A stretch of DNA of 64,000 bases from Kineococcus xinjiangensis. GTDB lineage: Bacteria; Actinomycetota; Actinomycetes; Actinomycetales; Kineococcaceae. Numbering within the stretch: the first letter of the stretch is position 1; every line of letters begins with the position of its first letter. This document shows positions 2,792 to 8,580 of the stretch, in pieces. The notes under the pieces were generated by a model. That model ran no database searches and was not told the origin of the DNA. It was given only the letters and a program-made list of their open reading frames with translations. The DNA lies in NCBI RefSeq assembly GCF_002934625.1, contig NZ_PTJD01000007.1, positions 62,001-126,000 of the forward strand, read 5' to 3'. The position numbers and the translations under genes are program-made.

Positions 2792-5389
2792 ATGAAGCTT
2801 CTTCCTCGTGCAGCGACGGGCCGCGCGCTCGTGTGCGGCGGCGTGAGCGCCGCGCTCCTGCTGAGCATGGCCACCAGCTCCGCGGCGGTGGCGAGCGCGC
2901 CGACCGGAGCCCGGGCGGGTACCGCGGCGGGCGGCTCCGGCGGCGGGGTCCTGCTGGAGTGGCTCGACCGCGGGCTCGTCGCGGCCGCCACCGACCGCGG
3001 GGTCTTCCTCTCGTGGCGACTGCTCGCCACCGAGGTCACCGGGGCGACCGCCGACGGCATGACCGGGCCGGACTTCCGCGTCTACCGCGACGGCAGCCTG
3101 GTCGCCACGGTCACCGACAGCACCAACTGGCTCGACCCCGCGGGCGCGCCGTCGTCGCGCTACCGCGTCGTGCCCGTCGTCGACGGCCGCGAGAGCGGCC
3201 CCAGCGGCGAGACGACGCCGTGGCGCGGGGCGTCCCTCGACGTCGCGCTGCAGAAGCCCGCCGACGGGGTCACCCCGGCTGGGGAGGCCTACACCTACTC
3301 CGCCAACGACGTCAGCGCGGCCGACGTCGACGGGGACGGGCAGCTGGAGCTCGTCGTGAAGTGGGACCCGTCCAACTCCAAGGACGTCTCGCAGCGCGGC
3401 TACACCGGCACCGTCTACCTGGACACCTACGAGCTCGACGGAACGCTGCTCGCGCGCATCGACCTCGGCGTGAACATCCGCGCCGGCGCGCACTACGCCC
3501 AGCCCCTCGTGCAGGACTTCGACGGCGACGGCCGCGCCGAGCTCATGGTCAAGACCGCACCCGGGACGAAGAGCACCCGCTACGTCGACGGCAGGGCCGC
3601 GACGACCGCCCCCATCACCCTGCTGCCGGAGGACGTCGCGGCGGGCGTCAGCCACTCCGACGACTACCGGCTCAGCGCACCGCAGTACCGCGACCACCTC
3701 GCCGGGATGCTGCAGGGCTGGCACGCCCACCCGGAGGTCGTCGCCGGGAACTGGCCCGCCACGGTCGAGCAGGCCCTCGGCATGGAGCCGAAGTACGCCT
3801 ACCCGCTGTCGGAGGCCGACGCCGGCGCGCTGGCCGACCACTTCATCGACGTCTACGCCCCCGGCCGCTCCAGCCGCAACGAGCTGCGCAAGTTCGAGGG
3901 CTTCGTCCTCAGCGGGCCGGAGTACCTGACCGTCTTCGACGCCGGCACCGGCCGCGAGCTGCAGACCGTCGCCTACGAACCCGGCCGCGGCGACGACGGA
4001 CTCATGTGGGGCGACTACGCGATGGGCCGCATCGAGCCCGGCAACCGCGTCGACCGCTTCCTCTCAGGGGTCGCCTACCTCGACGGCCAGCGCCCCTCGG
4101 CGGTGTTCGCCCGCGGCTACTACACGCGCACCACCCTCGCCGCCTACGACTGGGACGGCGAGCGCCTCTCGAAGCGCTGGTTCGTCGACAGCGGGCACGC
4201 GCCCCTGACCAACCCGTTCAACGACAGCCCGCACGGGCGCGACGGCACCGATCCCGTCTACGGAACGCTGACGACGCAGGGCTTCCACTCCCTGAGCGCC
4301 TCCGACGTGGACGGCGACGGCAAGCACGAGATCGTCTACGGCGGCGCGACCATCGACCACGACGGCGGCCTGCTGTACTCCTCCTTCGACACGATGCCGC
4401 CGCAGTCCGCGATGCCCGGCGAGCAGGCGCGGCTCGGGCACGGCGACGCCATGCACGTCACCGACATCGACCCCGACCGTCCGGGGCTGGAGATCTTCTC
4501 CGTCCACGAGGGCGGTCGCTGGGCGCCGTTCGGCAACGTCCTGCGCGACGCCGCGACCGGCGAGACGATCTTCGGCAGCTACTCGGGCCGCGACACCGGC
4601 CGCGGCATGATCGGTGACGTGGAGGCCGGTACCCGCGGCATCGAGGTGTGGGCGTCGATGCCGGGCGGCAGCGACGGCTCCGGGCTGCTCAGCGCGAAGG
4701 GCACCCAGCTCAGCACGTCGACGCCCGGCACCAACATGTCCATCCGCTGGGCCGCCGACGGCACCACCCAGATCGTCGAGGGCTCCCGCAGCGAGACCCC
4801 GGTCATCCGCGACTGGAAGCGTGGCGTCCTGCTCACCGCCACGGGGACCCTCACCAACAACCACACGAAGGGGAACCCGTCCCTCGTCGCCGACATCCTC
4901 GGCGACTGGCGCGAGGAGCTGGTCGTGCGCACGGCCGACAGCTCGGCGCTGCGGATCCACCTCAGCACCGAGGTGACCGACCGGAAGATGTACACGCTCC
5001 TCCACGACCCGCAGTACCGCGCCGAGGTCACCCGGCAGCAGACCTCGTACAACCAGCCGGCCTACCCCGGCTTCTACCTCGCCTCCGACACCGACTTCCG
5101 CGACGTGCCGGTGCCGGACCTGGTCGCCCCCACGGCGCAGGTGCTGGCGAGCCGGCTCGCCGAGCTGATCGCCGCGGGCAGGGTCAGCGGCCCGCTGGCC
5201 AACACCCTGCGCGCCCACGCCGACAACGCCCAGCGGCACCTGGAGCGGGGCCGCACGGAGCAGGGGCTGCGCGAGCTCGAGCGGTTCCTCGGGCAGCTCG
5301 ACCAGCCTCCGGGGCAGGGCCGCATCGACGGCTACGCCCAGCAGGTCCTGCGCCACACCGCCACCTCCGCGGCGGCCGCGCTGCGCTGA
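2792..5389 (+). CDS. Secreted rhamnogalacturonan lyase, PL11, with C-terminal FIMAH-like domain
   Basis: Polysaccharide lyase family 11 (YesW/YesX type) cleaves the rhamnose-galacturonate backbone of pectin RG-I by beta-elimination. The 865-aa product begins with a signal peptide (about residues 1-32), then a fibronectin-like N-terminal segment, then an eight-bladed propeller with several calcium-loop motifs of the DVDGDG type (SAADVDGDG, QDFDGDGRAE, ASDVDGDGKHE). Residues about 773-835 form a helical segment (ASRLAELIAAGRVSG...) resembling FIMAH domains appended to secreted actinobacterial and Firmicute enzymes. The ATG has GAAGGA about 6 bp upstream. It is monocistronic: a strong hairpin follows at 5423. 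Context with GH43-AbfB indicates RG-I and arabinan side-chain attack. Confidence 0.9.
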   Translation: MKLLPRAATGRALVCGGVSAALLLSMATSSAAVASAPTGARAGTAAGGSGGGVLLEWLDRGLVAAATDRGVFLSWRLLATEVTGATADGMTGPDFRVYRDGSLVATVTDSTNWLDPAGAPSSRYRVVPVVDGRESGPSGETTPWRGASLDVALQKPADGVTPAGEAYTYSANDVSAADVDGDGQLELVVKWDPSNSKDVSQRGYTGTVYLDTYELDGTLLARIDLGVNIRAGAHYAQPLVQDFDGDGRAELMVKTAPGTKSTRYVDGRAATTAPITLLPEDVAAGVSHSDDYRLSAPQYRDHLAGMLQGWHAHPEVVAGNWPATVEQALGMEPKYAYPLSEADAGALADHFIDVYAPGRSSRNELRKFEGFVLSGPEYLTVFDAGTGRELQTVAYEPGRGDDGLMWGDYAMGRIEPGNRVDRFLSGVAYLDGQRPSAVFARGYYTRTTLAAYDWDGERLSKRWFVDSGHAPLTNPFNDSPHGRDGTDPVYGTLTTQGFHSLSASDVDGDGKHEIVYGGATIDHDGGLLYSSFDTMPPQSAMPGEQARLGHGDAMHVTDIDPDRPGLEIFSVHEGGRWAPFGNVLRDAATGETIFGSYSGRDTGRGMIGDVEAGTRGIEVWASMPGGSDGSGLLSAKGTQLSTSTPGTNMSIRWAADGTTQIVEGSRSETPVIRDWKRGVLLTATGTLTNNHTKGNPSLVADILGDWREELVVRTADSSALRIHLSTEVTDRKMYTLLHDPQYRAEVTRQQTSYNQPAYPGFYLASDTDFRDVPVPDLVAPTAQVLASRLAELIAAGRVSGPLANTLRAHADNAQRHLERGRTEQGLRELERFLGQLDQPPGQGRIDGYAQQVLRHTATSAAAALR

Positions 5390-5422: not shown

Positions 5423-5461
5423 GCACCGGCCGCCGCATCGACGCGATGCGGCGGCCGGTGC
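5423..5461. terminator. Strong hairpin terminator after the PL11 gene
   Basis: GCACCGGCCGCCGCATCG (5423-5440) pairs perfectly with 5444-5461 around a 3-nt ACG loop, an 18-bp GC-rich stem 33 bp after the lyase stop. There is no U-tract, as is common in high-GC actinobacteria. The right arm runs directly into the 16-bp tandem repeat that starts at 5457. Confidence 0.75.
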
Positions 5462-5568
5462 GCGTCGTGCCCGGTGCGCGTCCTGCCCGGTGCGCGTCGT
5501 GCCCGGTGCGCGTCGTGCCCGGTGCGCGTCGTGCCCGGTGCGCGTCGTGCCCGGTGCGCGTCGTGCCC
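5457..5568 (+). repeat. Seven tandem copies of a 16-bp unit (GGTGCGCGTCGTGCCC)
   Basis: Seven head-to-tail 16-bp units fill 5457-5568; only the second (5473-5488, GTCCTG in place of GTCGTG) differs, by one base. The first unit overlaps the last five bases of the terminator stem. Because 16 is not a multiple of 3, the array would encode a 16-residue periodic peptide if translated, but no credible start or gene lies here. It looks like a VNTR grown out of the terminator arm. The rest of 5390-5722 holds nothing else that I recognise apart from the ribosome binding site of the next gene. Confidence 0.9.
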
Positions 5569-5722
5569 GGCTGCCACCGTTCGGGCGAGGTTCCCGCCGA
5601 CGCGCCCCTGCCGCGTCCCCGCCCTCACTACCCTCGGACGCGGGCCGGGGGACCTCCGGCCGTCACGTCCACGCGCCGTCCGCCCGGTCCGGCCGCGTCC
5701 CCGGCCCGACGGAGGGGCACGC

Positions 5723-6265: not shown

Positions 6266-8041
6266 TCAGCCCCGCGGCGCGGAGTGCAGCCCCAGCGCCC
6301 TGCGCAGCAGGTCGTGGCGCCAGACCGTGCGCAGCAGGAAGAACCAGAGCACCGTGGCGGCGGTGACGACGGGAGCCTCGAACCCGCCGGGGGTGTGCAG
6401 CCCGAAGTAGCGGGCCAGCGCGGGCGTCTGCAGGACCACGACGAACGTGGCGAAGAGCACCAGCACCAGCACGGCGGGACGCCTGTCGGGGCTGACGGGC
6501 GCCCAGCCGCGGAAGAAGCGTGCCGGCGGCTCCAGGAAGAGCACGAGGAGCAGGCCGGTGACGGAGGTGAACATCGACAGGCTGGTCTGCGCGACGGCGG
6601 TGGCTGCCAGCTCCACGAACCGCGGATCCGCGCTGGCGACGCCGGTGAACTCCTCGAAGTCGGCGATCGCCTGGGGTGGCAGGACCCCGCCTTCGCCCAG
6701 GGCGCGGCTGAGCAGGGTGTGGAGCGCGGCGTAGATCGCGATGGCGAAGCCGCCGGTGACCACGGCCGCCGGCACCACGAACCGCGCGAGGTCGCCGAGC
6801 AGGTGCGGGTCGCAGCGCTGCGGGCGTGCCCACGCGGTGAGGAACAGGGTCGGGATGCCGACGGTGAAGATGGTCAGGGACCCCTGGGCGGGCTCGTACG
6901 GGAACCCCAGGCCCAGGACCGCGACGCCGAGGATGACGCCCGCCGAGGTCGCCACCCGGGTGAGGAACAGCTTCATGGCGGGCGAGACCCCGCCGATGAT
7001 GCGCTGTCCCTCGTGGTGGGCGACGGGCAGGGCGGCGAAGGAGTCCTCCAGCAGCACGATGTCCGCGGCGTCGCGGGCGCCGGTGCCGCCGCTCTGGACG
7101 GCGACGCCGACGTGGGCCAGGGTCAGGGCGGGGACGTCCCCGTCGCCGCCGCCGACCATCGCGACGTAGCGCCCGGCGCGCACGAGGGAGTCGACGACCT
7201 GCTCGGCCAGCCGGGCGTCGGCGCCGGCCAGGTGGGCGTGCCCGCGCACGATCCGGTCCAGGTCCTCCGCGCCCAGCCCCTCCAGCTCGCCGGCCACCAG
7301 CACGTCCGCCGCCGGCAGGCCGAGTTCGTGTGCGGCGGCGCGGACGTGCTCCGCGTCGCGCTCGTCGAGCAACCGCACCTCGATGCCCCGCTCGCGCAGG
7401 TCCGCCAGGGCCTGCGCCGCGCCGGGGCGCAGCCGGCCGTCGTCGTCGGCCAGGCCGCCGCCCAGTCGCGCGCAGAGGACGTCGACGTTGCTGAGGGACT
7501 CCACGGCGTTGACGCGCTGCACGAGCGCGCCGCGGCGGGCGATGCCGGCGGCGCCGACGGCGTAGGCGAGGGTGACGAGGAGGAAGAGGCCGTACGGGAT
7601 GAGCCCGGACAGCACGGCGCTGATCTGCGCCATCCGCACGGCGGGCAGCCCCTCCAACGCCGCCTGCCCCAGGATGGCGGTGCTCATGAGTGCGACCGCG
7701 AGGACGACGGCGCGGATGACGACGTCGATCTGGTGCTGCAGGGGCGTGCGGGCGGAGCGCCGGGCAGGCCCGGTGCCCACGGGCCCGGTCGTCGCCGGGG
7801 GCCGCGGCTGCACGCCGGGATCGGCGGAGCGCCGGCGCAGGGCGTCGAGCCGGTGCTTGGCGCGCATCTCCTGCGCGGCGCTGATGAGCGCGTTGAGCAG
7901 GCCGAGGCCGGCGCTGACGACCGCGTCGCCGGTGCGCCCCAGTGCGAGCAGCGCGATGCCGATGGCGAAGAGGACCACGGTGAAGAAGGTCAGGAGGTTG
8001 GCGCGCAGGATCTGCGCGTAGGTGCGTCCGCCGTCCGGCAC
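6266..8041 (-). CDS. Catalytically degenerate P-type ATPase relative (CtpE-like pseudo-pump)
   Basis: This is a membrane protein of 591 aa related to actinobacterial CtpE-type cation ATPases, which usually exceed 780 aa. The N-terminus keeps the family's IVRANxLT-like and AQE[ML]RAK motifs and TM1-2 (residues 8-60). TM3-4 (105-165) and a C-terminal TM domain (about 345-585) are also kept. The actuator domain with TGE is replaced by a roughly 35-residue Pro/Arg linker (72-104). The phosphorylation motif DKTGT is absent: NVDVLCARLGGG stands at 185-196 and no nucleotide-binding domain follows. The hinge TGDGVND has become GGGDGD (297-302), and the M4 PEGL ion-site motif is PYGL (149-152). It cannot be a normal pump, yet the reading frame is intact. 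A scaffold, regulator or partner subunit role is conceivable. Confidence 0.75.
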   Translation of the reverse strand: MPDGGRTYAQILRANLLTFFTVVLFAIGIALLALGRTGDAVVSAGLGLLNALISAAQEMRAKHRLDALRRRSADPGVQPRPPATTGPVGTGPARRSARTPLQHQIDVVIRAVVLAVALMSTAILGQAALEGLPAVRMAQISAVLSGLIPYGLFLLVTLAYAVGAAGIARRGALVQRVNAVESLSNVDVLCARLGGGLADDDGRLRPGAAQALADLRERGIEVRLLDERDAEHVRAAAHELGLPAADVLVAGELEGLGAEDLDRIVRGHAHLAGADARLAEQVVDSLVRAGRYVAMVGGGDGDVPALTLAHVGVAVQSGGTGARDAADIVLLEDSFAALPVAHHEGQRIIGGVSPAMKLFLTRVATSAGVILGVAVLGLGFPYEPAQGSLTIFTVGIPTLFLTAWARPQRCDPHLLGDLARFVVPAAVVTGGFAIAIYAALHTLLSRALGEGGVLPPQAIADFEEFTGVASADPRFVELAATAVAQTSLSMFTSVTGLLLVLFLEPPARFFRGWAPVSPDRRPAVLVLVLFATFVVVLQTPALARYFGLHTPGGFEAPVVTAATVLWFFLLRTVWRHDLLRRALGLHSAPRG

Positions 8042-8076: not shown

Positions 8077-8580
8077 TCAGCGCGGCGGCCCGCCCCCGGC
8101 GGCGTGCGGGCCGGTCTCGTCGAGGATGAGCACCGTCTGGGTGGAGCGGATCTCCGGGATGTCCTGCAACCGGCTCAGGACCAGGTCCCGCAGGGCGGCG
8201 GCGTCGCGGGTGCGGACCAGCAGGACGATGTCGTGCTCCCCGGAGACCAGGGCGGCGTGGTCGACCTCGGGGATGTCGAGGACCTGGCGGCGCACCGCCT
8301 TCCACGACTGCTGCGCGATCGTCAGGTAGACGTAGGCGGACAGGCCGTGCCCGTAGCGCTGCGGGTCGACGAGCGCGCTGAAGCCGGTGATGACGCCCTC
8401 CCGCTGCAGGCGCTCGACCCGGCTGTAGGCGTTGGCGCGGGAGACGTGCACGGCCGCGGCGAGGGCGCGCATCGACAGGCGCCCGTCCGCCCGCAGGGCC
8501 GCCACGATGCGCCGGTCCACCGCGTCGAGCGGAGCCGTTCGTCCACCGCTACCCGGCTCCGCCGGCTCCTCTGGATCCAC
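8077..8580 (-). CDS. Lrp/AsnC-family regulator, probable BkdR-type regulator of the adjacent dehydrogenase operon
   Basis: The 167-aa product has a typical AsnC HTH (LDAVDRRIVAALRADGRLS..., recognition segment HVSRANAYSRVERL, about residues 18-65) followed by a RAM effector domain (residues 85-155, ALVSGEHDIVLLVRTRD). The only start that fits in frame is GTG at 8580; no strong Shine-Dalgarno precedes it. It is transcribed divergently from the 2-oxo acid dehydrogenase operon with 117 bp between them. Lrp-type BkdR proteins are known to control bkd operons in response to branched-chain amino acids, so the same role is inferred here. Confidence 0.8.
   Translation of the reverse strand: MDPEEPAEPGSGGRTAPLDAVDRRIVAALRADGRLSMRALAAAVHVSRANAYSRVERLQREGVITGFSALVDPQRYGHGLSAYVYLTIAQQSWKAVRRQVLDIPEVDHAALVSGEHDIVLLVRTRDAAALRDLVLSRLQDIPEIRSTQTVLILDETGPHAAGGGPPR

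Follow-up and report, generated by a model that had tools for sequence, protein, structure and literature searches.

The gene on the reverse strand at positions 6266–8041 of the window (the 64,000-nucleotide stretch of Kineococcus xinjiangensis DNA analysed here) probably encodes a pseudo-P-type-ATPase, a protein which has lost the catalytic motor of a pump, has kept the membrane bundle and serves a non-pumping role in the membrane.

Reading frame, homology and predicted structure

The frame of 591 codons described in the initial annotation was confirmed (Table 1). Its length was rejected as evidence of coding, since at a window GC content of 74% an overlapping antisense frame stays open for 681 codons (681 aa), longer than the ORF itself; the reality of the frame follows instead from full-length homology and codon-position GC. 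Identity to intact relatives reached 45–50% in the best segments. Pfam detected only the tail of the E1-E2_ATPase domain and a partial HAD domain, and the product scored 66.6 bits against the generic NCBIfam P-type ATPase model TIGR01494, above the cut-off of 62.3.

Structure prediction, proposed earlier as a check, returned a confident fold. The AlphaFold2 model, with 49 relatives in the alignment, reached a pLDDT of 89.4 and a pTM of 0.89, a confidence partly borrowed from intact relatives; a recent pseudogene would score well too. It comprised a ten-helix bundle, a stalk and the full P-domain fold; a disordered segment (residues 80–90) replaces the actuator. The best Foldseek matches were MgtA, Listeria LMCA1, SPCA1 and Pma1, with TM-scores of about 0.6–0.7 by query length. 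TIGR01494, AlphaFold and Foldseek agreed in assigning the product to the P-type ATPases by its ten-helix membrane domain and HAD-type P-domain.

Table 1. Coordinates of the putative pseudo-P-type-ATPase gene, its segments and the adjacent regulator gene in the window
Feature	Position	Strand	Remarks
Putative pseudo-P-type-ATPase gene	6266..8041	(-)	GTG start, 591 codons + stop; GC1/2/3 0.78/0.51/0.97
M1-M2 helices, residues 8-72	7826..8020	(-)	Alignment, AlphaFold
Disordered linker of ~27 residues, residues 73-99	7745..7825	(-)	In place of ~107-residue actuator loop; pLDDT < 50 at 80-90
M3-M4 helices, residues 100-172	7526..7744	(-)	Alignment, AlphaFold
M4 PYGL motif, residues 149-152	7586..7597	(-)	Ancestral in the subfamily, not a loss
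Stalk and remaining P-domain, residues 173-345	7007..7525	(-)	HAD-like fold without catalytic residues
Junction ARLGGGLADDDGR, residues 191-203	7433..7471	(-)	Replaces DKTGT and the entire N domain (~150 residues)
SGDD changed to DERD, residues 226-229	7355..7366	(-)	Alignment
Catalytic P-domain lysine of FGR..P..K changed to A279	7205..7207	(-)	Alignment
Hinge GDGVND changed to GGGDGD, residues 297-302	7136..7153	(-)	Alignment
M5-M10, residues 346-585	6287..7006	(-)	Includes M7-M8 insert common to intact relatives
Lrp/AsnC-family regulator	8077..8535	(-)	Upstream of the ORF, same strand; 5' end approximate

Loss of the catalytic motor

Alignment with intact relatives showed that about 254 residues, as counted by eye, are absent from at least three places, and all of these losses are in frame. 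The N-terminal ~40 residues, which form the first part of the actuator, are gone; the actuator loop is reduced from ~107 to ~28 residues and holds no TGE actuator domain, and the region from the phosphorylated aspartate through the whole N domain has shrunk from ~150 residues to 13. DKTGT is absent, with ARLGGGL in its place. DKTGT may have been deleted rather than mutated, since the sequence across the junction, C190-ARLGGGLADDDGR, is also similar to the N-domain end (ARA..APLRDGAGR). In the P-domain, FGR..P..K now reads AGA..A..A. The structural stretches GRYVAMVG, HVGVAV and ADIVLLED are kept, and it is the catalytic residues that have changed.

The losses of the actuator domain, the nucleotide-binding domain, DKTGT and the GDGVND hinge, as first described, were thus borne out by the alignment, and the product lacks every hallmark of an active pump: DKTGT, an actuator with TGE, the nucleotide-binding domain, GDGxND, the P-domain lysine and SGD/TGD. 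One further claimed loss, PEGL to PYGL in M4, was mistaken. Intact close relatives have P-x-GL, nearly always PYGL, and the motif was rejected as evidence of loss since PYGL is ancestral among them.

P-type ATPases work by binding ATP, forming an aspartyl phosphate and cycling between the E1 and E2 states. Given this established mechanism and the loss of the motor, the product should be unable to bind ATP or to be phosphorylated and dephosphorylated, and from its sequence we infer that it does not pump.

Intact relatives form the PYGL subfamily

Initial searches led to CtpE-like pumps with ~30% identity to the ORF; a first scan of genome contigs with the ORF protein alone gave no matches. Two divergent relatives (L002 and L005) have signatures in common with the ORF, and scanning the contigs with an alignment of all three recovered closer relatives of ~845 aa in Geodermatophilus, Blastococcus, Goekera and Actinoplanes flavus. 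Within the Geodermatophilus family, 42 of 115 genomes encoded proteins of this PYGL type, as did 41 of 351 in the Actinoplanes family, and a phylum sample added two further relatives. The 12 genomes of the ORF's own family contained none besides the ORF, and no plasmid-borne relative with high coverage was found.

Altogether 53 intact close relatives were checked (36 and 17 more), mostly from Geodermatophilaceae and Micromonosporaceae. DKTGT, SGDDP and GDGVND are present in the relatives examined, a few fragmented copies (L076, L143) excepted; most have a recognisable TGE, and M4 reads VPYGL or IPYGL in almost all. They share with the ORF the membrane helices, the M7-M8 insert and PYGL in M4, but they are ~840–900 aa long, with the actuator, the N domain and the three catalytic motifs complete. 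Both the membrane and the full alignments grouped the ORF within this PYGL clade with a support of 0.998–1.0, apart from the CtpE-like outgroup; in a tree of the P-domain only, its position was unstable. Its nearest neighbour is possibly a paralogue group of Actinoplanes relatives (L200-L205), with a support of only 0.23–0.45. Clade placement and the PYGL motif in M4 together make the ORF a member of the subfamily.

The CtpE-like label given initially therefore needs correction: the nearest relatives belong to a sister subfamily neighbouring CtpE, and CtpE orthology was rejected because the tree places the ORF in the PYGL clade and its M4 has PYGL, not PEGL. CtpE and the family 23 or P6 ATPases (PMC5615198, PMC10654040) form the neighbouring clade and resemble the ORF in their ten-helix topology and in an M6 without an acidic residue. 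CtpE itself carries VPEGL and the complete set of conserved motifs (PMC5615198). In the membrane part, identity between CtpE-like proteins and the PYGL set was only ~29%.

The PYGL-type P-type ATPases of Geodermatophilaceae and Micromonosporaceae are an uncharacterised subfamily, and neither M4 nor M6 holds an acidic residue in the alignment. Several side observations were made on this subfamily. Its loci L069-L079, L169-L196 and L200-L216 are patchily distributed, with no conserved neighbours. M4 reads PNGL in Chloroflexales and has other P-x-GL forms in Methanomassiliicoccales. The second paralogue group of the Actinoplanes relatives, L200-L205, has an intact DKTGT and a P-domain motif altered to FGR..P.TK, and in some members the actuator motif is TGEP, TGET or TGEA. 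The genes L076 (Geodermatophilus siccatus) and L143 (a Propionibacteriaceae MAG) are broken into shorter frames, through either sequencing error or loss.

Selection or decay

Selection for a non-pumping function, as suggested in the initial annotation, was expected to leave orthologues with the same deletions. None has so far been found in about 1,500 genomes, in which the genus is represented by one genome; the suggestion is partly supported, by membrane constraint, GC3 and the confident fold, and this missing orthologue counts against it. It also favours the principal null explanation, an unlikely one, namely that the ORF is a lone pseudogene, drifting since its pump function was lost, in which a stop or frameshift has yet to occur. 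The missing catalytic residues and domains would fit such a gene, and gene loss does happen in the subfamily, as the broken copies L076 and L143 indicate. Three lines of evidence run against it.

Conserved sites have been retained unevenly. Of the sites with a conservation of at least 97% across 36 intact orthologues, the ORF retains 151 of 197 in the membrane (77%) versus 41 of 74 in the P-domain (55%; Fisher test, p = 9e-4), an excess not predicted by uniform drift. The lost P-domain sites include catalytic ones, and M1-M2 keeps 34 of the 42 sites that are invariant in eight intact relatives. In intact outgroups the pattern is reversed (L077, 99/197 membrane versus 56/74 P-domain sites; L002, 77/197 versus 54/74). 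In a functioning pump the catalytic sites are conserved no less than the membrane sites, so drift alone is unlikely to favour the latter.

Branch lengths point the same way. On a fixed tree, the terminal branch of the ORF measured 0.36 for the membrane part versus 1.04 for the P-domain, a raw ratio of 2.87 against 0.5–1.66 in the other lineages listed. Normalised to the tree, the P-domain branch is 3.45 times too long (bootstrap 2.33–4.88).

The frame itself is clean, with no stop or frameshift and with every deletion in frame. GC3 is 0.97 overall and 0.95–1.00 in every 59-codon block, whereas intergenic GC is roughly 0.74. Simulated neutral substitution at 0.2–0.3 per site lowered GC3 to about 0.88–0.90 and left the frame open in 1.5–6% of runs, with indels not counted; at 0.3 per site, GC3 was 0.875 and the probability of no stop was 0.015.

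Taken together, retention, branch rates and reading-frame hygiene speak for prolonged selection on the membrane part following the loss of the motor, as a record of past constraint and not as proof of present function. Neutral decay of the ORF appears unlikely on these data.

Genomic context

The ORF begins 35 bp past the stop of the Lrp/AsnC-type gene; given this spacing and the shared strand, the two genes possibly form an operon. A divergent dehydrogenase E1 gene adjoins the regulator. No neighbour was widely conserved in 19 windows around intact relatives, loci L069-L079 and the Chloroflexota loci described below, and no relative of the Lrp regulator lay near the intact relatives or the Chloroflexota loci, which yielded no partner candidate. 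An assignment of function from gene neighbours was rejected, as the neighbourhood is not conserved around intact relatives. Separately, a nearly perfect tandem repeat at 5455–5570 (unit CCGGTGCGCGTCGTGC, 7.2 copies) sits between the gene at 2792–5389 and a small membrane protein gene; its period of 16 is no multiple of 3.

The genome content bears on whether the ORF product could belong to a split pump or a hetero-oligomer in which another subunit provides the actuator and N domains in trans. P-type pumps can dimerise, and Foldseek ranked MgtA dimer structures highest. However, the genome has neither an intact paralogue of the PYGL or CtpE type nor a spare actuator domain: CopA (P1B), identified by its CxxC metal-binding and CPC motifs, is its sole further P-type ATPase with such a domain. 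The phosphorylated aspartate is moreover missing from the ORF itself, and on these two grounds complementation in trans is largely refuted and a split pump highly improbable.

A dead branch in Chloroflexota

Two Chloroflexota MAGs carry at least three dead members of the wider subfamily (L087:5227-8169, L096:3-1550 and L198). Here DKTGT has become GTTGT, SGDD has become SADH or SAKH, and GDGVND has become GSGVDE/D, each motif being read only in the copies that cover it. dN/dS between copies was 0.27 over 677 codons and 0.245 over 516 codons (bootstrap 0.19–0.35), and 0.06 around the hinge. Like the ORF, these members of the wider subfamily have lost the phosphorylated aspartate and GDGVND; unlike it, they retain every domain, have an N-domain insert and owe their losses to substitutions, which arose independently. 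They are under purifying selection.

Because the Chloroflexota losses are of another kind and lie outside the PYGL clade, a dead motor arose at least twice. With a dN/dS of about 0.25, the Chloroflexota group also indicates that a member of the wider family can be maintained by selection without catalysis; it is arguably a better-supported pseudo-pump than ORF 6266–8041.

Proposed mechanism and significance

Pseudoenzymes occur in most enzyme families. In the history that we propose, a pump of the PYGL subfamily would have lost its actuator, nucleotide-binding domain and phosphorylation site through in-frame deletions and a 5' truncation, leaving a protein unable to bind ATP, to form the aspartyl phosphate or to cycle between E1 and E2. 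The ten-helix bundle, stalk and P-domain fold would have been retained under selection, as shown indirectly, with a membrane bundle that no longer changes conformation and a cytosolic P-domain that provides a partner with a docking or structural module. We tentatively prefer this form of the pseudo-P-type-ATPase reading, a scaffold or regulator docking through its dead P-domain, because the residues that define the P-domain fold are kept while its chemistry is gone; it may well be wrong in this detail.

The main functional alternative is a passive role of the membrane part, as a channel, carrier or lipid scramblase that, without actuator and N domains, would leak or be gated by another signal. 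Polar and Gly/Pro helix residues are kept (R362, PYGL, VGIPT, Q485), palytoxin-treated Na,K-ATPase is a precedent for converting a pump into a channel, and the lack of acidic residues in M4 and M6 of the subfamily could mean a cargo other than a classic cation. Nevertheless, a constitutive leak would be costly and the intact relatives have no known substrate, and we regard a passive pore as improbable.

Searches of the open-access literature turned up pump-independent or degenerate P-type ATPases in eukaryotes only (PMC11631496, PMC6592433), and no bacterial P-type ATPase cut down to a membrane bundle and a dead P-domain, with indications of ongoing selection. The P4-ATPase-like domain of PfGC-beta (PMC6592433) is a P-type ATPase scaffold with degenerate motifs, but it is eukaryotic and fused to a cyclase; CATP-1 (PMC11631496) has roles claimed to be pump-independent, but it is eukaryotic and still carries the pump machinery. 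Neither shows the deletion of actuator and N domains that marks the ORF.

There are two independent dead branches, of which the actinobacterial one is reduced to a membrane bundle and a pseudo-P-domain. That the wider subfamily has repeatedly been turned into ATP-independent membrane proteins, a new bacterial class of pump-derived channels, receptors or scaffolds, is a more doubtful proposition. As a natural minimal chassis, the ORF would allow study of what the membrane half of a P-type pump does once the motor is gone; it also draws attention to an uncharacterised PYGL subfamily without acidic M4 and M6 ligands.
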